Part shown: positions 46,354 through 60,415 of the stretch, piece by piece
Numbering within the stretch: position 1 is the first letter of the stretch
Layout of the letters: each line of letters starts with the position of its first letter
From: Marchantia polymorpha subsp. ruderalis
Taxonomy: Eukaryota > Streptophyta > Marchantiopsida > Marchantiales > Marchantiaceae
Direction: 5' to 3'
NCBI GenBank assembly: GCA_037833965.1
Contig: AP031357.1
Location: 3,244,001-3,308,000, forward strand
Length of the DNA: 64,000 nt
Position numbers and translations under genes: made by a program
Notes under the pieces: model-generated
What the model was told of the DNA's origin: nothing
The model's input: the letters and a program-made list of their open reading frames with translations, nothing else
Database searches by the model: none

Positions 46354-47180
46354 AGCCTACTGCTGACGAAGTCGGGAAGCTCGACTTGTCAAATCGAGTT
46401 CACCACCACTTTCCTCGCAAACCCTGTTAAGGGGTGCTCTTGTTGAAAGGGCTCTTGCTTGAGCCTACTGCTGACGAAGTCCGTCTGCTAGTCGGGAAGC
46501 TCGACTTGTCAAGTCGAGTTCACCACCACTTTCCTCGCAAACTCTGTTAAGGGGTGCTCTTGTTGAAAGGGCTCTTCCTTGAGCCTACTGCTGACGAAGT
46601 CCGTCTGCTAGTCGAGAAGCTCGACTTGTCAAATCGAGTTCACCACCACTTTCCTCGCAAACTCTGTTAAGGGGTGCTCTTGTTGAAAGGGCTCTTGCTT
46701 GAGCCTACTGCTGACGAAGTCCGTCTGCTAGTCGAGAAGCTCGACTTGTCAAATCGAGTTCACCACCACTTTCCTCGCAAACTCTGTTAAGGGGTGCTCT
46801 TGTTGAAAGGGCTCTTCCTTGAGCCTACTGCTGACGAAGTCCGTCTGCTAGTCGAGAAGCTCGACTTGTCAAATCGAGTTCACCACCACTTTCCTCGCAA
46901 ACTCTGTTAAGGGGTGCTCTTGTTGAAAGGGCTCTTCCTTGAGCCTACTGCTGACGAAGTCCGTCTGCTAGTCGAGAAGCTCGACTTGTCAAATCGAGTT
47001 CACCACCACTTTCCTCGCAAACTCTGGTAAGGGGTGCTCTTGTTGAAAGGGCTCTTCCTTGAGCCTACTGCTGACGAAGTCCGTCTGCTAGTCGAGAAGC
47101 TCGACTTGTCAAATCGAGTTCACCACCACTTTCCTCGCAAACTCTGGTAAGGGGTGCTCTTGTTGAAAGGGCTCTCCCTT
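46354..47180. repeat. Tandem array of a 120-bp unit, seven copies
   Basis: Units begin (at AGCCTACTGCTGACGAAG) at 46354, 46463, 46583, 46703, 46823, 46943 and 47063. The first is about 109 bp because it lacks the CCGTCTGCTAGT segment; the others are 120 bp. The array has no spacers and no open frame in any reading frame. Copies differ at only a few positions (for example GCTT/CCTT before GAGCC, GTTAAGG/GGTAAGG). Each unit holds a short inverted repeat, CTCGACTTG facing CAAATCGAG, which is perfect only in the second unit (CAAGTCGAG). High similarity points to recent expansion or active homogenisation. Confidence 0.95.
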
Positions 47181-48079: not shown

Positions 48080-51000
48080 ATGGATTCCCGATGTCGATCC
48101 TTGCAGCTCGCAGGAGTCCTGTGCATTCTAGCGTTCGTGTTCTCTTCTGCATCTGCACAAACCTGCATCAGGCGTGACAGAGATGCATTGTTGGCGTTCA
48201 AGGCCCGTTTTGACGATCCCTTGAACCAGCTCGGGTCGTGGAACCAATCGAGAAATTGCTGCAAAGATTTCGTCGGCGTTACATGTAATTCCAAGGGGGA
48301 GGTTACCAATCTGACATTCGCAGGCAGGGTCGACGAGGAGTGTGATGAAGACTGCCCCTTCATCCGCAACAAGAATGAGGGCACGGATCCCATTGGTCCC
48401 ACCCTGTCGAAGCTGTTGGCGCTTCAGACTCTGAATCTGAGTTTCATTCAAATTGTAGGCCCTTTCCCATCCGGATTGAGTGCATTGAAGAGCTTATCGT
48501 ATTTATCCTTGACCCGCTTGGAACTCCAGGGATCCCTTCCTGCGGACCTTTACAAGATTTCCAGCTTGAAGTATCTGGCATTCGGAGGTCCCTTCGGAGG
48601 CTTTACGAGTGATTTTTGCAAGCTGACGAAGTTGGAGATCTTCGACATTTCCGAGACAGTTTTCAGCGCGGGAGGCAACGGGGCTGGTCTTGGAGGAACA
48701 ATTCCTTCCTGCATCGGAGATTTGCAGCAGCTGCGACAGTTTCTCATAGAGTTTAACAACTTTACCGGGCCCATTCCCGACTCGATCCGAAGACTGCAGA
48801 AGTTGCAGCAGTTGAAGCTCTCGGGCAATGCTTTGTCGGGGCCGATTCCCGCGGTCCTTGGAGAATTGAAGGCCCTGGAAATTTTGTATATCCAAGGAAA
48901 CGATTTCAGCGGTTCCATTCCTTCCACCTTGGGTAACTTGCCCAACTTGAAGGATCTGAGGATTGGAGGAACGGCAGCTCTGCAAGATAATAGTTTCGTC
49001 GACTTGAAGTTTACCAACATCGATGGTGCTATTCCATCTTCTCTCGGGGGTCTCCCAAAGCTACAGGTACAGAAATTTTACCTTTTCCCTGCGTACCAAT
49101 TTGAGCAATCATTTGTATCAATGTGCGCGAATTTTCCCAACTCTTTACTTCGACATTTCGTACTTTGAACCTAGAGATAAGGAGTTACCTTCTTCTGAGC
49201 TTGCTGAATTTCTCCAGTTAGTGTGACAAACGCTCACAACTTTCTGTACCTGGTGTGCAGACTCTCTACATCAAGGGGTCAAGAATTACGGGAGCCATAC
49301 CTAGCTCCCTCGGCAACGCGAAAATGCTCACAGATCTAGAGCTGGAATTCAATTCTCTTGATGGGGTATTGCCCGCGTCACTTGCTGGCCTCAACCTGAC
49401 GGTATTTCAATTCAATGACAATCAAATCAGCGGTGTCATTCCTGCAGCCTACGGGCAATTCCGCTTTCTGACGAGGTTTATCGGAACTCGAAACAAATTA
49501 ACTGGTCAGTTTTCGTATCCGAGTATTCTGGTTGCTTATGAAATTGAACAATGAAGAAATTGAACGCACACGCACTCCAATGTGCACAGACGGTTGATTC
49601 TGCCGTCCTTTGTTCAGTGAGCTGATTATTTGCCCAGGCAATTTAGAACTGGATAACTCTGCTGAAGCGAGTTTGACGAGAGCTCCAGCGCTGAAAGACT
49701 GGGTCGCATGTGTTCTGATACGTATAATGATGTGATTCTCTTTTCAGGGCCACTCCCCAAGGAACTATCAAACTGGAGATTTCAACCCGCAGGAGCGCTG
49801 GACCTGTCGGATAACATGATAACGGGACCGATTCCTGATGATCTCGGACTAGCTCTACCTTTAGCAGATTTCAACATATCTTACAACCAGCTCTCGGGTT
49901 CGCTGAAGCCATCGTCGTGGTATAAAACTTCGAGAATCTATCTGAACAACAACCAGCTCACCGGCCTCGGATCCGGCAACATTCCGGACGATGGCGAGAG
50001 CGGGCAGAATACGCAGACTTTTGACGTCCACTCCAACCGCATCTCAGGTAAACAATCTGCTCGGACCGCACGAGTGCCACTGACTTGTTTGCACCTTAGT
50101 GGCTGAGGGTTGAAATGCGGGCTCTGACAGAATGGGCCGATTGATCGTGCGCAGGTCCGGTTCCCAACTGGGTCTTCCAATTTGTAAGCGCAAGCGCGAT
50201 CGACCTTTCTGACAACATGTTCACAGCGCTGCCGGTCATGCCATCGGCCGGGATATCGGTGTACTACCTCAATGTCTCGAACAACCAGATCACCGGGAGC
50301 ATTCCGGACACCTTCTCCAGATCGAACGATTTGGACATGAGCAGGAACAAGCTCACAGGCTCCATCCCCGCCAGCTTCGGTTCGAACAACGCGAACATAA
50401 TCGATCTGAGCTACAACATGCTGACGGGCGAAATTCCTGCGGGCATCTACGACGGCACATTCTTCAACACGCTCGTGTTGAGCAACAACATGCTGACGGG
50501 CCCCATCCCTGAGCGCTCGGACAATAATGTGTTCCTGCGCAACATCGACGTCTCCAATAACCTGCTCATAGGCTCCGTTCCCGCCTCGCTGTTCAATTCT
50601 ACATTCTCTGGCGTTATCAAGGTCGGCAACAACCGCCTCACGGGGCCCGTCCCCAACTTTGCTGACAACTGCGATTTCCTCACTACAGTGGTTCTGGAGA
50701 ACAATCTGCTCTCGGGCCCGGTGTTGCCTTCCGGTGCCTCATTCGAGACGTGCAACAGGTTGGAAGTTTTCGACGTCAGTGGCAACAACCTGTCCGGAGG
50801 TGTACCCACCGAGTTGGCGAATCTCTTGGTCAGAGTTTCTTTCATTCTCTAGAAATTTGTTTTATTCATTTTCCTCTGTCCTGGAACTTGATTTTTGCTG
50901 AGTATTGATCGCTTCGTCTTCTCGCCATATCCTGCACGTTAACTGCAATTATGTGGATGATCGATGACGTCTGGCTGTGTGGTGAACATTGTGCCCACGA

Positions 51001-51631
51001 GCCTTGAAATTATGATGCTGGGACTTCGTGAGGAGGAGATTCGGGTGATTGATTCTTCGTTTTGTTTTGAGCTCAGGGTTTGAGGGTCTTGGATCTCAGC
51101 ATGAACTCTTTGACGGGACCAGTGAACGAGGCTTTGAGCAGTTTGGCGAGTGTCCTTGTTCTCGACCTCTCCGGCAACAGGTTGACGGGGAGCGTTCCCT
51201 GGACGATGCTGGTGTCCGGGTTTGCTGCTTTGAAGGAGGCAGGAGCATCGGCGTTGAAGTTCATGTCCGGATCCCCTGCTTACTCTGTGACGATCAGTTA
51301 TGAAGAGCTCAGTCCTGGCACCTTCCTGAGAACTGACTTCGTCACTTCTGCCTACTCCACCGCTCTCAACTTCTCCAACAACGCTCTGGCCGGCATCGTT
51401 GACTCGTCCGTCGGACAGCTGAAGGGCCTTCATGCCTTTGACATCAGTGGAAACCAGTTCTCGGGTGCTGTTCCTGAAACGCTCGCAGACATCACCGACC
51501 TCGATTTCCTGGATGTTTCCTACAACAACTTCAGAGGCCCCATCAGCCCCAAGCTGGCAACATTCCCCGCATCGTCGTTCGAGGGCAACCCCAACCTTTG
51601 CGGTGCCCCTCTGTCTAATCCCTGCACATAG
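48080..51631 (+). CDS. Secreted leucine-rich-repeat protein, receptor-like without kinase, five exons
   Basis: Exons read as 48080-49066, 49261-49504, 49748-50047, 50155-50828 and 51077-51631 join in consistent phase (0, 1, 1, 0) through GT-AG introns to give about 919 residues. The start ATG precedes a clear signal peptide (LAGVLCILAFVFSSASA, cut near residue 26). Next comes the plant LRRNT_2 cap (DRDALLAFKARFDD, then GSWNQSRNCC and GVTCN). Then follow some 25-30 extracellular-type repeats of the form L-x-x-L-x-L-x-x-N-x-L-x-G-x-I-P. The C-terminal cap ends SFEGNPNLCGAPLSNPC, and the stop follows at once. There is no membrane segment or kinase. By family, such proteins act in the cell wall, in recognition or as partners of receptor kinases, like the ectodomain of receptor-like proteins or polygalacturonase-inhibitor-type LRR proteins. 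The missing membrane anchor is the main oddity; further downstream exons were looked for and not found. Confidence 0.88.
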
Positions 51632-52734
51632 TAGATGCCAATACTCTCGATGATAGGCCCGGAAGAAGGTGGTTGTTCGTTTGGAAGATCGCGGATCACG
51701 TCTACTGTAGGTGGCATCGCCCATTGTGCGCGCCAGTCTAGAAAGGCAGAGAATGATCACTGGTGCTCTTTTAAGTGTTCATTTGAGCATCGTTGACATG
51801 CTCGTTCGTAGAGAAGCTCGTTGGTGCTCAACTTCATGTATATATCACATGTAAAGTGTTTTTTTTTCATCTTTTTCTAAAGAATTGGAAGCTTTATATG
51901 TACAGATCGAAGTTGAACTGCGCAAACTTTTTTTAACCTTAGGTTGATCCTTTCATTGGTTAGAGAATCCGTGGAACGTGTTGATGAGTCAATTAGTGTT
52001 TATTAAGAAAATGCTTTGAACAAAGTGATATAGTTAAGCAGGTAATGTGACCATGAAATGAAAGCTCACGTTAATATAAACAGAATATTTCCAGAATTTC
52101 ATGCAAACAATCTTTTTCTTCTTGACCTCACTTAAAAATGGTTCTTAGTTCTTAGATTCCAATGGCTAAAGTTGTAGCATGAACATTTATATATAGATTT
52201 CTCCCATATAGGCTTCAACAGTGGCATTCATGCTATAGGTTGATAATTGATGATTAGACAATTTTGTAGGTTGAATTTTCTATTTGAGTTTACAGCATTG
52301 AGTTTCTTTACATGGCAACTTCAGGAAAGAGATTTTGTTATACGTGGATAAGTTCTCATACATCGTATGAGAAAAATTGAGGTCGGTAATGTCGTTATTT
52401 ATTTATGTATTTATCACTCTAGTATGCAAACAGGAGTTTTCAAAAATTGGCTGGATGGAACCACTGTCGTGCTACTCAGTATCGCCATACATCATACATC
52501 TCTGACATGCTCTACTCACAACTCACACATACATACACAAGGAACGAGAGTGTCCACACACAAAGGTATCACAACTCGCCCCCCTAGCTGGCGGTCAGGT
52601 CCCTCTGACTCCCAGGTAGCCCTATCTACAACTACATGCTATGCACCTTCGTGGGTGCGCGAACTAGTAGGCCGGGTGCTATGTCGCCCCATCGTTAGTC
52701 GCCTATCTGCAATTCATAACATGTGAAGATCAAG
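51632..52734. other. Flank between the LRR gene and the Gypsy-type element
   Basis: The first part is presumably the 3' untranslated region of the LRR gene. Then follows AT-rich DNA with no recognised gene. On the - strand a TGTTATGAATTG block near 52715-52726 looks like a possible LTR start, but no matching copy is seen on the other side of the element, so I do not call an LTR. Confidence 0.4.
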
Positions 52735-52739
52735 TCATC

Positions 52740-53970
52740 TACCCTCTGAAGTACATCGAGGACAAACCCACCATCCAGTAGGAACAACATCGATAGGTGG
52801 AGTCAAGCACGACATGTGCCATCCCCTAGAACACCTATCACACACCAACATATGGGCCGCGTGATCAGTTGACCCACATAACATGCACCTCAAGCCGGCA
52901 CGTACAATTGCCAAGCTTGGGTCCATAGTACCATCCACGTTTGGGAAGTGGCATGGCGCACAGTTGCGCACATGATCCTTCCAAACGACACCGTCACGAC
53001 CCTCCAACATGAGAACTCCAGAAGGTAACACCTCTCGCACTCGCAAGATAGTGCGTCCTGCCGTCACATCCAACGTAGTCGGTGCAGTCTGCTGTAGATA
53101 GACGTAGTCTCCCACGCGGAACCTACGAATCGATGGTCGATAACCTCCCCCTCGAATAGTTGCATACCGCAACGTATCCCGGTGCTGAGCAATCGCAAGG
53201 TTCTCAAACGCTGCAGGCATAACTCTCCGAAAGAGCACTGCACGTTGAGAACACACTCTCACCCACATATCTTGATCATCAAGGTTCACCACCTCGCTAG
53301 ACTCACGACGAATCGCTGCAGGCAAGTCTGGATCTCGGCCGTACAATAGAAAATATGGTGAAAACGAAGCCAAGGATGCTTGACGACTGAATCGATATCC
53401 CATGGCCAACCATGGTAACTGAATATCCCAGTCCCCAAGATGCCTCTTCTGTAGGCCATACTTGCGCAACGCTCTCTTCACCGTCTGTACCATCCGCTCA
53501 GCCAACCCATCCGCCTCTAGATGATCTCGGGAAGTAGTCCGGTGATCAATCAGCGTCTTGTCACACAAGACCTGAAACTCACCCTGAAACTCTGTCCCCT
53601 GATCGGTCAACACCTCAGCTGGTGCACCAAAGTGACTAAGCACCCTGTCAAGGAAAGCATATGCTACTCCCTCACTCGCCTTGTCAGGTAATGCCACCAA
53701 CTCAATCCACTTGGAGAAATGCTCCGCCATCACCAACACATACCGATGATGTCGTGTAGTCAAAGGTAGTGGTCCAGCAAAGTCCAAACTCCAACGGTAA
53801 CCCAATCCCATGATAGGTGAGGGATGTAACTCTGGTGTCGGGGCATTGAACGATGCCCTCACTCGATCACAAACCATGCAACGTGATACCAACTGCTACA
53901 CCTGCGTATGCATACCACGCCACCAATACTGTCCTAGGAGTAAGCTGTACGTACGCTTCACTCCAAAATG
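52740..53970 (-). mobile_element. Part of the Gypsy-type element: integrase with C-terminal PHD finger
   Basis: The integrase has a HHCC-type zinc-binding start (HAHEELGHF, then CMVC) and a catalytic core. The first aspartate is in SLDFAGPLPLTT, the second in VLTDQGTEF, and the glutamate follows in the HLEADGLAERMVQTVKRALR region. Beyond the core is a region reading FRVGDYVYLQQTAP typical of Gypsy integrase C-termini. After that comes a C4HC3 PHD finger: CMLC, then MLVCDRCSRGWHMSC, then GWWVCPRC. PHD fingers in host proteins read histone H3 tails; in a Gypsy element one would expect a chromodomain at this place, so a chromatin-targeting role is a reasonable inference. Confidence 0.88.
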
Positions 53971-53999
53971 TCCCAACTCCTCATGAGCATGCCTCACAA

Positions 54000-54530
54000 A
54001 CGTGCACGATGAGCACGTGAACCAACCCTCGCAGCATCCAACAACACTGCTGATCCAATCCATGCCTTGACCTCATGGACACTCGCCATCAACTGGGCCC
54101 GAGTGTCACCCAACAATGGTACGTTCTCTAGAATGTATGCGGGAGAACGTGTCTGCTGCTCCTGGAGATGACGTAACACTCGTAGCATCTCCCAAAACAT
54201 CCGAGATCTCGGGTCATGTAACCCTGCTCCATGTCCAGCGCGTGTGTGCCCCTGACATGGCCATCCCGCAATCACCAAATCGATATGTCCAACTCGATCG
54301 AGGTCTGGCGCCCCCAGCAATGAAATGTCTGTAGGCAACGCCTTCTGGTATCCTCGAACAGCTGATCGCGGCAACAACAAAGGAAAACGCTGCATCAACT
54401 GTGTAACATGTCGTGAAGAAACCCGACGTGCAGTCTCGTCCTTCTCCACGTACAAGTATCTACGTACAAGAATACCTGACTGCAACACTGCAGCCAAACC
54501 CGTGCTGATCCCTCCAAAAAGATCCAGCAA
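54000..54530 (-). mobile_element. Part of the Gypsy-type element: DNMT3/DRM-like cytosine-5 methyltransferase domain
   Basis: Signature motifs appear in the right order. Motif I is LDLFGGISTGL, the SAM-binding loop, comparable to FDGIATGL in DNMT3. Motif IV is GWPCQGHTRAGHG with the catalytic cysteine after P. Motif VI is ENVPLL, supplying the glutamate, and motif VIII is AHRAR, comparable to the SAAHRARYFW block of DNMT3. The order I-IV-VI-VIII with little between IV and VI resembles DNMT3 more than DNMT1. The enzymatic role known for the family is transfer of a methyl group from S-adenosylmethionine to C5 of cytosine in DNA. Whether this copy was ever active is unknown. Confidence 0.85.
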
Positions 54531-57389
54531 ACAAACACCCTCTGGGGAATACTCCTATACAATAGGTGTAGTAACTAATGGTGATAGGGTACCAAGACCA
54601 CATACTAGCCGACCATCTGAGACTCGCTCTGCCTCTGCTGGTAAAGAGGCCTCACTCCAAGCCTTCTTCATCAACCTATCAGCCTCCTGCTGTAATGCGT
54701 GGCAAGAATCCCAAAGTGGAACATCCAAAGATGATGACACTGCCGCTGCGAGACTCACCATCTCCTCCACCTCCTCATAGACTGGAGCATCCTCGGCTGA
54801 CCTGTTCCCCTCCAACAAGTCATCAGGCCATGTGAGCACTCCATTGAAACCCGCAATAGAGGCTAAAACTGCAGGAGAAGATCCAAGAGGTCGATCTCGA
54901 GAAATGAACCTCACAGGCAGCTCACTCATACGTCCATCACCGGACTCCCAACCAGGACGATAAGCTGCCGTCTCCGTCCAATAATCCATCCGAAATCCCA
55001 TCGGATATAACACCGCTCCACCAACAAGCACATCATATGACTCTGCTGATGTAACCACCGCTCGAACTCCAAACTACGAGCTATCCTGAGCATGACCATG
55101 CCTCAACTGCACTGATATGCGCTCTCTGGTCATCCTGTAAGATCTGTCGCTGGTGCCACCGAGTGATGTCTGAATCTGGAACGGACAAGGCTCCAACTCG
55201 GACCTCCGAACTCCCAAACTAATGCAGGCAATCTTGCCCAACATCAAAGGCTGTGCACCAGAATCCAGCAACACTCTGGCTGGGACATACACCTGCGCTG
55301 TAGCACTCACCAAGCAAAATACCCCGCTCCGGTTGTCCACCATACACACACCAGGGACAACCCTCTCCCGATCAATGGCTGGTCGGGCTGGCAAGGACTC
55401 CATCCGTGCCGCTGCCGCCTGCCATGTCGACTCATCGCTCGATGAAGTCGTAGAGGATAGCTCCTCACCAATAGTCTCGCCTATGTCGGCACTCGTAGCA
55501 GGGATACTCCCACGTTCACACAACGTGGCTGCTGCACGAAAAACCCGAGCCAAGTCAATCCCAGAGTCCATCAGCTCCATAGCTGAAAATAATGGAGATC
55601 TCATCATTGAGCTAGCCATCCGCGTCACTGCACTAGATGGTGTGTCCGTGTCCACTACCCGTGACGTAGATGTCTCAGTCCTCCCACTAAGACCACTAGG
55701 TGGTACAGGTCTCATGGATGAAGTACTGCCCACCTCTGACAGCAAAAACGACTGGGGAAGTCTGGCCTGACGCCCACCCTCACCCCTCTGAGGATCCAAC
55801 TCCCCTGTCGCACCGCGTGGCTCTAGAGCTCGAGCTGCACCTCTAGTCACTGCAACCGATGCCTCCACCTGTGCTGCACTCGCTAGATAAGGGAAATCCT
55901 CTTCCTTGTAAGAGGTGGAAGTGCTCGCCCCAGAACTCACCATAGCAGCAAGCCTCTGCTCCAACTGCTCAATACGAGCAGCCATCGCGCTCTCCGTAGC
56001 CGAAGTAGCACTCGCTACAGGACGTCCAACTACACCGGCACCTCGACCACCTCTACCAGCACGGCCACCTCGACCTCGAGAAGCATCACCACCACGACCT
56101 CTACCACCAGATGTCAACTCTGGATGAAGGTCAAAACACCGATCTCGAGTATGCCCTGCTCGATCACAGTGGTCACACACCACCTGTGCTGACTGGGGTC
56201 TAGCCTGTGAACTCTGACCTCCGGCCTCCTGGGGACAATCTCTCCGCCGATGATCCCCTCCACATGTCCAACATGCTGGTCCCTGCTGCTGGCCAGCAAA
56301 CGACGGCACTAGTGCACGTGCCCCTGTATCTCTAGCGGCTGTCTGGTGTCGTGTCTGCACTCCGCGACCCCCACCACTACCACCACCAAAGGGTCTAGAC
56401 TGTGCCGTGCTCTGCGGGACACGAGAGGTAGTGGCTGCGTCTCTAGCGAATGAAGAAGTCACCACTCTCTCCTCCACTATGTTAAGCTCAATCTTCTCAG
56501 AAAGAGCAAACACATAGGCCAATGTCGGTGACGCATCGCTCAAGAGAGTAACATCCCGAACTCTCCGCCGTAGCTCTCTGTCAAGTATCCTGTACTAATA
56601 CTGGACCGCATGTGCCTCAGTTACACCGTGAGTAACTGAGATCAACCGCCGCATACGCGTGTATGCCTCCCGAAGACTCTCACCAGTCTTCCGCTCAAAC
56701 TCCTGGAGACTCCTCAACTTCTCCGTCCTCACCCCCTGATAGTTCTTCCTCAACCTCTTGAAGAACTCAGGAATGGGGCTGAACGAAGGTACGCCAGTAG
56801 TCTCTCCACTCGTGCTGGCAACGCCAACAGCACCGCTGGTGGTACCTGCTCCACTAGTACCATCGGTGATGCTACCACTCGCCCCTCCACTGGTAGCAAC
56901 ACCACCCTGGGTGATCGACGTATAGTTTGGAGACCAATGACGCCTCCATGCGTCAATCTCCACAGCATACTCTCTCCCAAACTCATGGTAGTCATCCATG
57001 GGAGGCCCCTCCAGATGCTGAAACAACCCTTTCCATGCAAAGAAGGGTGTAAACAACGTGGGGTTACGCAAGAACTGCATATTGCACCACGTGTCAAACT
57101 CCTGGATGAAATCATCCAACTCAATGGTGCCCACTGCACCAGAGTACCGCCGTGGGCCCTTCATGGCCCCGTACATACCGTCCATGTCCTCAGTCCACGA
57201 GTGTGGGACCCTAGACGATATCACCCCCAAAGATCCGCTATCTGCCACACTCCGCGACTCTATAACCACTGATGCGCTAGGATGAGGTAGCCGATACCTC
57301 AACCCACTCCGCGTAAATCCTCCACGGTCCTCAACGGAACCCCCAAACTCCTCCGTGATGACTGACTCACCAATCGGCACCACTGCCAC

Positions 57390-58140
57390 AACTCCACCTG
57401 CCCTCGTCCCTGCACTAACCTGCTCTAGCCCTACTGACTATGGGTATGGGCAACCTAACCTGTCATCACCACAAGAAGACTCTCCTGGTCCACTGGTCAT
57501 CACTCCAGTCTCACCATGAGAGAAACAAAGATAGGCGCCGGTGATCAAATCCAGCCGCACTATCGACAGCACACTGGAGTAAAACTACTCCGGAAATCAA
57601 CGTCAACCCAGACATGGGCGCGCATCAAGAAGCCAGACTGGAGAGGATCCAAACACAAGCAAACAGCTAGCAACGACTCTCCAGCCGAAATGAAACACAG
57701 CACAGAACAACACAACACACGGGAAGTCGCCTCGCATAACGATCCCGAGTCGAGCTCCATCGCCTCCTCTCATCTTCCACCTCCCTCGCCTGCAACGCTA
57801 TCTCGCTCATCCCGTCGCAAAAAAATAATGACCTCCACGCCGAGCTATCCCGTACTTCACCTCATACCTCCACTTCACACTACAAATAGAGGCGTCGAAT
57901 ATAACAAATATGAAAAGCCTATCTACCCTAACTATTTGCCATAGAAAAAAAACAAAATAGAGATAAAGCAATATTTTTACAACCGACAAACCATAGTAAG
58001 TGAGACGAGTACAAATTCTCAATCTCTTCAGAATATTTTCTTTTTTTTTTTCTTTTTTTTTCTTTTTTTTTTTCTGGACGTCTGCCACGGGACATGGCAA
58101 TTTATTAGGACATAGAATTGCAGTTTCGTTTCTATTCTCA
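57390..58140. other. Flank of the Gypsy-type element with a T-rich run
   Basis: No gene is recognised. It may contain the leader of the element, but no LTR could be paired with the other side. A T-rich run lies at about 58038-58073 (T runs broken by single C); it could be an oligo-A tail on the - strand or a simple repeat. Confidence 0.35.
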
Positions 58141-60362
58141 GACCGCGACAAGTGAGACGGCAGGAAATAGGTGTCACGAAGCCATTGACGCTGTATACAT
58201 CAGTCCTGGGGACTGTACGTCCTGGAATCTACAGGAGGCTTTGGGATCCGTGAAGCACTAGGAAACAAAGTCCACCCACTTTCGTGTACCTCGCTCACGC
58301 GCATGACAAAATATATCTGGCTTCGATCCGATCTATCGGGGTCGCTCTTCTCAAATTTAAGGACCCCACCTTCTTGGCCCCTTGCTCGGAAGTTTGGCCC
58401 ATCTCTTGATCAGGTGTTGCCAAGCTCGCCCCAGTATTCATTCAACTGTAGACGCCAAACCGGAATCTGCCTCCAAATTCCCTTGTCCGATTACGAATAG
58501 CTTGCAGGGTTTTTTTTTTTTTTTAGCTGCTCAGCACGCGTGCTGCAGGCGTATCACTTAGCCGAGTCAGGGGAGGAGGTCGACGAAGCGGATGAAGGCA
58601 TGAAGGTCAGAAGGTACTGCGAAGGATGGAGCTCACATCGATTGTATCTGTACACGTAGATAGATACGGCGGAGTTTTGGCTCCTTGCACAATGATATCT
58701 CATCTGTCTGCGGAGGAGCCGCAAGCAGCCTGAAGAAGTCAAGAACAGATCCGAAGCTCAAGCTTTCTTTCCGCTTTCTGAGTTGTGCCTTCGTGAGGCA
58801 GGACTTGATCTTTGTCCGATTCACTTGTCCTCGTGTCACTTATGGTCTCCTATTGTTGGCTTGGTTGCTCATATGCAATCTGCTTACAAGCTTTCGCAAG
58901 AGGAATGATTGAATGAAAGTCATAGTAAACTGGTACATACATATCTCACAGAAATCTTCGCAGCGACTCGCGTCATTCCGACCTCTGGGACTGGCAGACG
59001 ATCTGTGTCGGACTGTCAGCTCCAATAGAGATGAAGGTTTGAATCCCACTGTTTAGTCTACTTCGTTCGAGGTCGAGATCGGAAAACTAAATCCGAAGCA
59101 CGTAGACGAATATCCCCGTGGACCACCGGATCAAGTGCGTCATAAATCGTTTCAACCATTCCAGATGGCTCCTGCTGCCGTTTTTCTGACCTCCCACCGA
59201 TGATCGCTTATCCTGCCACATCACTTCGCGTTCCCCCCAGCATCAACCTCGATCGGGGTGAATTTTGACAAACTAAAGCAGTCGCAGAGATTCAAGAGTC
59301 ATCGTCCTCGTGCTCCTCCTCGAGCTCAAGCTCGTGCTCGTCTTCGTCTTCGTCCTCCTTCTCATTACCCAAGAAATCGGTTCAAACTTTACCCTTCTCC
59401 ACAAAAAAATCCTCAGAAGCTACAAATCAAGGGCCGAGACAAAACTAGCCGCTACACTTCGTTATCTCTACAGAATGCGCTCGAACCAGACGGAAGAGAT
59501 TGACACTCCCACCTCTGTCACTCTCACTCACACCTCTCTCCTTTCATTCGCTCCATCAGTATATTGGGATCTCTACCGAATGCACTGGAACACCATTTTG
59601 AGAGAGAAACGATGGCAAACACTTTGCACAAAAAAAAACCACGAAGAGAAAACTGAGAAAAACACGAACATAAACCTGAACACAAGAACGAAAGCACGAA
59701 CAGAAAACCAAGAAGAACCCAAGCAAAAATCTGAACACACTACATTGACTTATACTGTCAGTTCTTCAAGTAAAAGTAATGTCGAAACACCAATACACAA
59801 AGAGTCGAGCCAAACTCACTACTCGTAGGTAGACTAAAAGTCGAAGCTAAGGGGAAAAACCCCGACGCGTAAGGCTCAACTCGAAGAACTGACAGTTCTT
59901 CGAGTTCGCCACGAATATAACCCACGGAAGGTGTCGACTCCATCCAACGTTCCTCGCCCGTCTGCCGCGGCCCAACGTTAGCCGACTCCCAACGTTCCCC
60001 GACTCCAACTCGAACTCAACGTGTCTCCACTCAAATCGACCCAACGTCTCGAGCCATGACACCACCTACTAACTCGATAACCAAAATGCATAAAGTGTGA
60101 ACAAAGTGTATTTTTACCACATTTCTCATTACATCTACTAAAATCTGTCCTTGTAATCAAACTACAACTCTGAGTAAAAACGTTAGACCCCTGATTATCA
60201 GTTTTGTTTCACTTGATAACTACAAAAAGTGATACTCTGCGTTAAGAACCAGATCCGACTAAACCCTTAGTGATACCGACATACGTGCATTCTAGACATC
60301 TACGATTATGGCCGGTACTTTCAATTTTACTAACTTTTTGAATTCTTGAGGTAAAAATTCTT
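58141..60362. other. GC-moderate stretch without a recognisable gene
   Basis: A CTCGTG/TCTTCG-type simple repeat at about 59305-59360 drives two long frames (59258-59503 and 59310-59828, +) that I do not accept as genes. A T run lies at 58510-58524. Two copies of an ACTG-x-CAGTTCTTC-x-AG motif occur near 59755-59771 and 59888-59904. The second lies in a perfect inverted repeat (59878-59906). Confidence 0.35.
59878..59906. repeat. Near-perfect 29-bp palindrome
   Basis: Arms AACTCGAAGAACTG and the exact complement meet around a single A. A related copy of one arm lies about 133 bp to the left. It may be a foldback trace of a short duplication. Confidence 0.8.
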
Positions 60363-60415
60363 GATGGCCACGTGAATTAGCCAGACAGAGCGTCTGGTTA
60401 ATTCACGTGGCCATC
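60363..60415. repeat. 24-bp inverted repeat containing two G-boxes
   Basis: Arms at 60363-60386 and 60392-60415 pair with one G-T type mismatch around a 5-nt loop (AGAGC). Each arm contains CACGTG, the G-box bound by bHLH and bZIP factors. Pairing extends outwards through an ATTCTT block with a small bulge. The loop is too short for a typical plant microRNA precursor. Confidence 0.9.

Follow-up and report, generated by a model that had tools for sequence, protein, structure and literature searches.

Retroelements that carry a DNA methyltransferase are already known, and the closest described system to the one presented here is KnitGypsy-Dnmt3 of Klebsormidium nitens (de Mendoza et al. 2018, PMC5890265). 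The same paper describes the dinoflagellate retroelements SymbioDIRS-Dnmt3 and SymbioLINE-Dnmt, both with a methyltransferase, and reports that SymbioDIRS-Dnmt3 domains methylated CG in yeast, while some further DNMT3s lie in Copia and DIRS elements (PMC12344493). Reading of chromatin is represented by the chromoviruses, which carry a chromodomain behind the integrase and among which Tf1/Sushi is self-primed and the Tcn1 lineage predicted to be so (PMC6317226). Host gene segments inside long terminal repeat (LTR) elements, for which template switching has been proposed, are known from maize Bs1 and others, and 425 intact maize elements were reported to hold gene fragments, in no case those of several genes together under the conditions applied (PMC13317346, PMC2774510). 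The window analysed here, a stretch of 64,000 nucleotides of the liverwort Marchantia polymorpha subsp. ruderalis (contig AP031357.1, positions 3,244,001 to 3,308,000), contains at 52465-60061 a retroelement that brings several of these features together. It is probably a damaged member of a large liverwort family, Gypsy-type and recently active, encoding a DNMT3-type methyltransferase (MTase) and a PHD finger fused behind the integrase.

The family is best seen in the genome as a whole (241,466,482 bases in nine contigs), where 150 of 489 candidate MTase places were scored. All 150 match at 88-100% identity, and at 26 of them the match is free of stops and falls in an open reading frame (ORF) of at least 1,348 aa. 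Among named proteins, those of M. polymorpha come closest, with identities of up to 98%. For ten copies (L009-L018) the sequence was retrieved together with the flanks. Intact ORF1 (1,361-1,365 aa) encodes gag, protease (PR) and MTase and ends in one stop, after which ORF2 follows in the same frame with reverse transcriptase (RT), RNase H, integrase zinc finger, integrase (INT) core and PHD, as named by Pfam and found whole in one stretch of 1,045 aa in L015. The ORF1 stop is UAG in 9/9 copies read, followed by CARYYA in eight of them. UAG-CAR-YYA is the type I, tobamovirus-type context of stop-codon readthrough, so the ORF1 UAG stands in a predicted readthrough context; the MTase, being upstream of it, therefore sits with Gag and protease before the putatively leaky stop. 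Ratios of dN/dS across copies indicate purifying selection on the MTase, the segments used being stop-free and, for ORF2, also gap-free and at least 95% covered, which favours intact copies.

The window copy itself is a relic. On the minus strand, from 57437 to 52735, the six-frame ORF list and Pfam give gag, two CCHC knuckles, protease, DNMT3-type MTase, integrase and PHD in this order, the knuckles and the protease being read from the letters, as Pfam calls neither in this copy. About 2.5 kb has been lost, with the C-terminal half of the MTase, which breaks off within motif VIII, as well as RT and RNase H; L013 is 98.0-98.5% identical on both flanks of the deletion. ORF1 additionally holds three in-frame stops. 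An earlier sequence-only reading of this locus had recognised the parts and their co-linear order on one strand, which are borne out, and had overlooked that RT is lost, that the repeats are split, that the ORF1 stop has a readthrough context and that the leader carries the cargo discussed below. It had also confined the element to 52735..57389, whereas repeats A and B and the flanking 4 bp delimit a larger one, composed as follows.

52461..52464, no strand: target duplication on the right side of the element, 4 bp, CCAC on the plus and GTGG on the minus strand
52465..52576, minus: repeat B, the sole B of the window copy, forming its outer end, 98.2% identical to the B of L013
52735..53895, minus: rest of ORF2 with integrase zinc-finger end, integrase core, C-terminal part and PHD (Pfam rve at residues 33-122, E 8.9e-13; PHD at residues 337-381)
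52753..52887, minus: PHD finger (Pfam PF00628, E 1.7e-9)
53995..54005, no strand: deletion joint with 11-nt microhomology, from comparison with L013
53994..54554, minus: DNMT3-type MTase, N-terminal part to motif VIII (Pfam PF00145, DNA_methylase, E 2.9e-10)
54930..55350, minus: retropepsin-like protease, approximate limits, from DSGA and ILVGG-like motifs read by eye
56136..56273, minus: two CCHC knuckles
56595..57437, minus: gag part of ORF1 (weak Pfam Retrotrans_gag match, E 0.0096, below cut-off)
57438..57881, minus: right part of the leader, common to other copies, 93.0% identical to L013 over 444 columns
58036..58073, minus: A-rich tract at the right edge of the cargo
58074..59540, minus: leader cargo, donor locus C6:19621036-19625344
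59759..59770, minus: possible self-priming site, the 12 nt after A1, 11/12 complementary to a stretch inside A
59771..60061, minus: repeat A1, left end of the element, 97.6% identical to the A of L013
60062..60065, no strand: target duplication on the left side of the element, 4 bp, CCAC on the plus strand

Three further features of the window lie outside the element. Adjoining it on the plus strand (49666-51631) are open frames that by eye resemble a leucine-rich-repeat protein gene, and just beyond its left end (60363-60415) is an inverted repeat of 24 nt, 96% complementary, with a loop of 5 nt. A 120-bp unit is repeated in tandem at 46370-47180 (6.8 copies, 98% matches).

Relatives of the element extend beyond the liverworts. 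A query with the MTase region, devoid of the PHD, found 115 proteins, 95 of them with an integrase and 85 of these with at least 170 residues behind it; the PHD zinc pattern is present in 81 of the 85. The corresponding figure from an integrase search, 120 of 128, is biased, because the PHD was part of that query. The union of MTase and PHD in one element, as first suggested by the sequence-only reading, is thus confirmed by genome copies and relatives alike; its novelty holds insofar as the open-licence papers of PubMed Central yielded no report of it, but the pairing recurs in elements of Haematococcus lacustris, Chlamydomonas eustigma and many contigs. Named hosts found with MTase queries are these two, Marchantia and Sphagnum fallax, whose protein ends before the PHD position, and the integrase query added Riccia and Volvox. 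A scan of viral contigs with the relative P0040 gave no match.

The relatives fall into two layouts, with the MTase before RT (class A) or between RNase H and integrase (class B), and it is possible, if doubtful, that these reflect two separate captures of an MTase and not a single capture followed by a move. As two captures would have it, A and B are divided by the MTase tree (38 A and 40 B rows, SH-aLRT 98) and also by a tree of the integrases (SH-aLRT 90; 46 B against 47 others, with 35 rows unclassed); the Volvox row P0090, counted as B in the 79-row tree, has no recognisable motif IV and may not be an MTase. When the MTase tree is rooted the separation is weak (A 60/80, B 87/80), and a support of 98/92 parts A plus B from DNMT3A and host DRM, which speaks against two captures, with only three outgroup rows, DNMT3A among them with 38% of columns. 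This rooted tree has 58 rows, obtained from the 79 by removing 15 long-branched or incomplete ones (4 A, 10 B, 1 unclassed), thinning 18 A near-copies and adding 9 B and 3 outgroup rows.

The enzyme has a DNMT3 fold with an unpermuted order of motifs. A DRM-type enzyme was considered and ruled out by its weaker PDB profile matches and by the unpermuted motifs; the host MTase genes L039 and L040 have the permuted order of DRM, and in L041 no open frame with the motifs sought was found. Motif IV reads GWPCQG in 31 of the 38 class A rows. Class B relatives such as P0081, P0089, P0091 and P0107 have GWECQD as motif IV and often ENT or ENA as motif VI, while retaining the catalytic cysteine; among the class A rows, P0038, P0039 and P0041 likewise show GWECQG. 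With such altered motifs IV and VI the substrate may differ. We regard it as unlikely, though worth weighing, that the MTase acts in trans on host chromatin, host silencing or RNA instead of the element's own DNA, perhaps even restraining transposition. Its place in the presumably abundant Gag-side ORF fits such a role, as do the many class B relatives with WECQ for WPCQ, where a changed substrate is possible, and RNA methylation and slowed transposition are discussed by de Mendoza et al. (PMC5890265); the prevailing GWPCQG of class A and the DNMT3 fold point the other way.

The best PDB relatives of the PHD finger by sequence include those of CHD4, PHF12, DPF2, DPF3, PHF21A, KDM5B and ATXR5, most of which read histone H3 unmethylated at K4. 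The two residues before the PHD histidine are GW in 79 and GY in 26 of the 120 relatives with the zinc pattern, and no aromatic cage of the H3K4me3 type was seen by eye in the PHD residues of relatives. The finger may accordingly read H3 unmethylated at K4. It occupies the place that a chromodomain holds behind the integrase of chromoviruses, and no chromodomain is among the Pfam matches. In the relatives P0040 and P0045 a further C-terminal region follows the PHD, by eye like a second methyltransferase-like fold, in which Pfam at E 0.01 names nothing.

The leader, which separates gag from the possible priming site, varies from copy to copy. The genome was searched with eight leaders, or their greater part: that of the window and those of all fetched copies except L012, L016 and L017. 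All eight match other loci outside the family. Across four of them, the window, L010, L015 and L018, 17 introns are absent at GT-AG or GC-AG sites, so these four contain spliced host sequence, as gene-capturing LTR elements do. The clearest cargo is that of L010, composed of 11 exons of C2:12864177-12868309 at 96-100% identity in the element's sense, with all ten donor introns absent and GT-AG possible at each joint; its product carries Pfam LZ3wCH (2e-18) and resembles the meiotic protein MND1. L015 lacks three introns of a C4 gene (GT-AG, sense), and its older cargo includes a C3 piece with two introns absent at CT-AC, that is, in antisense, as well as a 375-bp gap without canonical splice sites. 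In L018 one intron of a C4 gene is absent (GT-AG), and in the window the 278-bp GC-AG intron of the donor C6 gene is absent at 58699/58700. Two donors contribute to a single copy in L013 and L015. A leader block of L013 matches C6:2691045 and one of L014 matches C7:26215511; the L009 cargo is antisense, with a weak nucleoside-transporter Pfam match below cut-off. Sister copies have cargo in common, which is thus inherited. Block 231-469 of the window leader, at first sight a shared piece of leader, is the sole repeat-family match in C6:19619900-19623699, where there is no A or B repeat, so it may belong to the donor gene, yet L009 shares it at 87%. A1 and the shared right leader could be matched up in 12 copies, and in 11 of these they lie 1.9-5.2 kb apart.

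Because introns are absent at canonical splice sites in four leaders, the elements appear to catch spliced host mRNAs. Entry of the cargo by DNA-level recombination or nested insertion, which the four cargos without any removed intron (L009, L011, L013, L014) would allow, is improbable, and the 17 missing introns refute it for L010, L015, L018 and the window.

The ends of the element are equally unusual. In the full layout, A-body-B-GC-A-B, a left A of 251-297 nt is matched on the right by a B of 112-119 nt, GC, a second A and a second B, so that the repeats are split and two identical terminal LTRs are not present. In a genome search for A+B, 40 of 616 candidates were scored, with A+B covered at 29 places and A alone at 12; at 26 of the 29 a further B closely precedes the pair, at a distance of 2-4 bp in 25 cases and of 37 bp in the other, and one more follows a first A+B in tandem. 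At C5:31860225-31861144 (G000) the right-hand array consists of a B and two tandem A+B units 2 bp apart. The window copy is a simple A-body-B with a perfect 4-bp duplication; that it has just one A and one B would be explained by the insertion of a shorter form or by recombination of one B repeat with the other. Immediately after A1, 12 nt are complementary to a stretch inside A at 11 or 12 positions in 8/8 copies, the stretch lying 28 nt downstream of a TATA box in seven of them, with the RNA start predicted from the TATA box only. This complementarity suggests self-priming, and RNA 5' ends at CAGTTCTTCGAG would fit it.

Split direct repeats are the layout of DIRS/PAT elements, which use a tyrosine recombinase. 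That the liverwort element is moved in this way is nevertheless highly improbable: it has an H2C2 and rve integrase, no tyrosine recombinase is among the Pfam matches at E up to 0.1 in ORF1 and ORF2, and identical 4-bp sequences flank the outer A and the outer B in all seven fetched copies with both ends located (L012, L016 and L017 left out) and in the window, thus in 8/8 copies, as expected of a DDE integrase though the repeats look DIRS/PAT-like. The order gag-PR then RT-RNaseH-INT in unbroken copies and a duplication in the 4-5 bp range are those of Ty3/Gypsy, and the element is filed as Gypsy-type by its predicted domains, including Pfam matches for RT. A chance patchwork, in which a host MTase or PHD gene came to lie beside or inside one broken Gypsy element, has next to no probability: the window copy alone, broken and without RT, might suggest it, but the same order recurs throughout the copies of this genome and among relatives in other organisms, chance juxtaposition is excluded by the 150/150 matching places in the same genome, the MTase is under purifying selection and does not group with a neighbouring host gene, and the host genes L039 and L040 have the permuted DRM order.

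It is tempting to propose how such an element might work. The MTase would be made in bulk with Gag, and RT-INT-PHD would be a minor readthrough product. The 5' end of the RNA would pair with the site after A1 and prime reverse transcription, during which RT could switch to host mRNAs and back, loading the leader with cargo. The MTase might then methylate the element's cDNA or the new insertion, while the PHD would tether the integrase to nucleosomes with H3 unmethylated at K4, so that self-methylation and histone reading by the element would be combined. More broadly, a green-lineage clade of integrase-type split-repeat retroelements may keep a chromatin writer and reader fixed, the writer at one of two polyprotein places, and its liverwort form may habitually catch spliced host mRNAs into a cargo bay between priming site and gag; we offer this tentatively, at not quite an even chance.

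Several points weigh against the main account of the element. The readthrough context is broken in L015, and the PHD gives a raw dN/dS of 0.578 over 52 codons in six copies, which is uninformative. The model lacks an explanation for the copying of the outer B. As to the cargo, half of the eight show no removed intron, so an origin from RNA applies to the other four; an A-rich edge lies directly at the cargo in 2/8 (the window and L010). The antisense cargos (L009 and the older one of L015) are unexplained by simple minus-strand switching and need a further step. In the window, block 59302-59540 joins the next at an 11-nt repeat without canonical splice sites, the blocks being 2.55 kb apart in the donor, which is likewise unexplained, and one of the 12 paired copies (C7:2732591) has 389 bp only, with no room for cargo.

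If the broader proposal is true, elements that spread host genes in the form of cDNA would also be marked by a writer and placed by a reader. The family has many intact copies in plants that serve as a model, and in it an MTase and a histone-reader finger travel together, so that self-marking and self-placing of retroelements become testable; its cargo documents gene duplication through RNA as a frequent route. It is well suited to studying the acquisition of chromatin tools and host genes by mobile DNA, and its DDE integrase together with DIRS-like split repeats raises the question of how such ends are copied.

MTases in retroelements, chromodomains in chromoviruses and gene capture are all known already; the pairing of PHD with MTase and the cargo appear to be new, no report of either having been found in the open-licence papers of PubMed Central. 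With KnitGypsy-Dnmt3, as set out in the text and figure 4 legend of PMC5890265, the liverwort element shares Gypsy-type domains, a DNMT3-type MTase in the coding region, repeats described as DIRS-like and purifying selection on the MTase; the two were likened by description, and no K. nitens sequence was recognised among the database matches. They differ in that the algal enzyme is said to lie in the Pol ORF and the liverwort one lies in ORF1 before the putative readthrough UAG; the words PHD and Marchantia do not occur in the main text of PMC5890265, and its compared sections mention no host mRNA cargo. The Symbio elements belong to other retroelement classes, of independent origin according to the same paper. 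Chromoviruses carry a chromodomain behind the integrase where the liverwort element has its PHD, and neither PHD nor methyltransferase is named in the main text of PMC6317226. With DIRS/PAT elements it shares split direct repeats and differs by its DDE integrase and 4-bp duplications. Compared with gene-capturing LTR elements, finally, the liverwort family stands out in holding its cargo at one place before gag, in 8/8 leaders tested and including copies with long intact ORFs, and in combining two donors in one copy.

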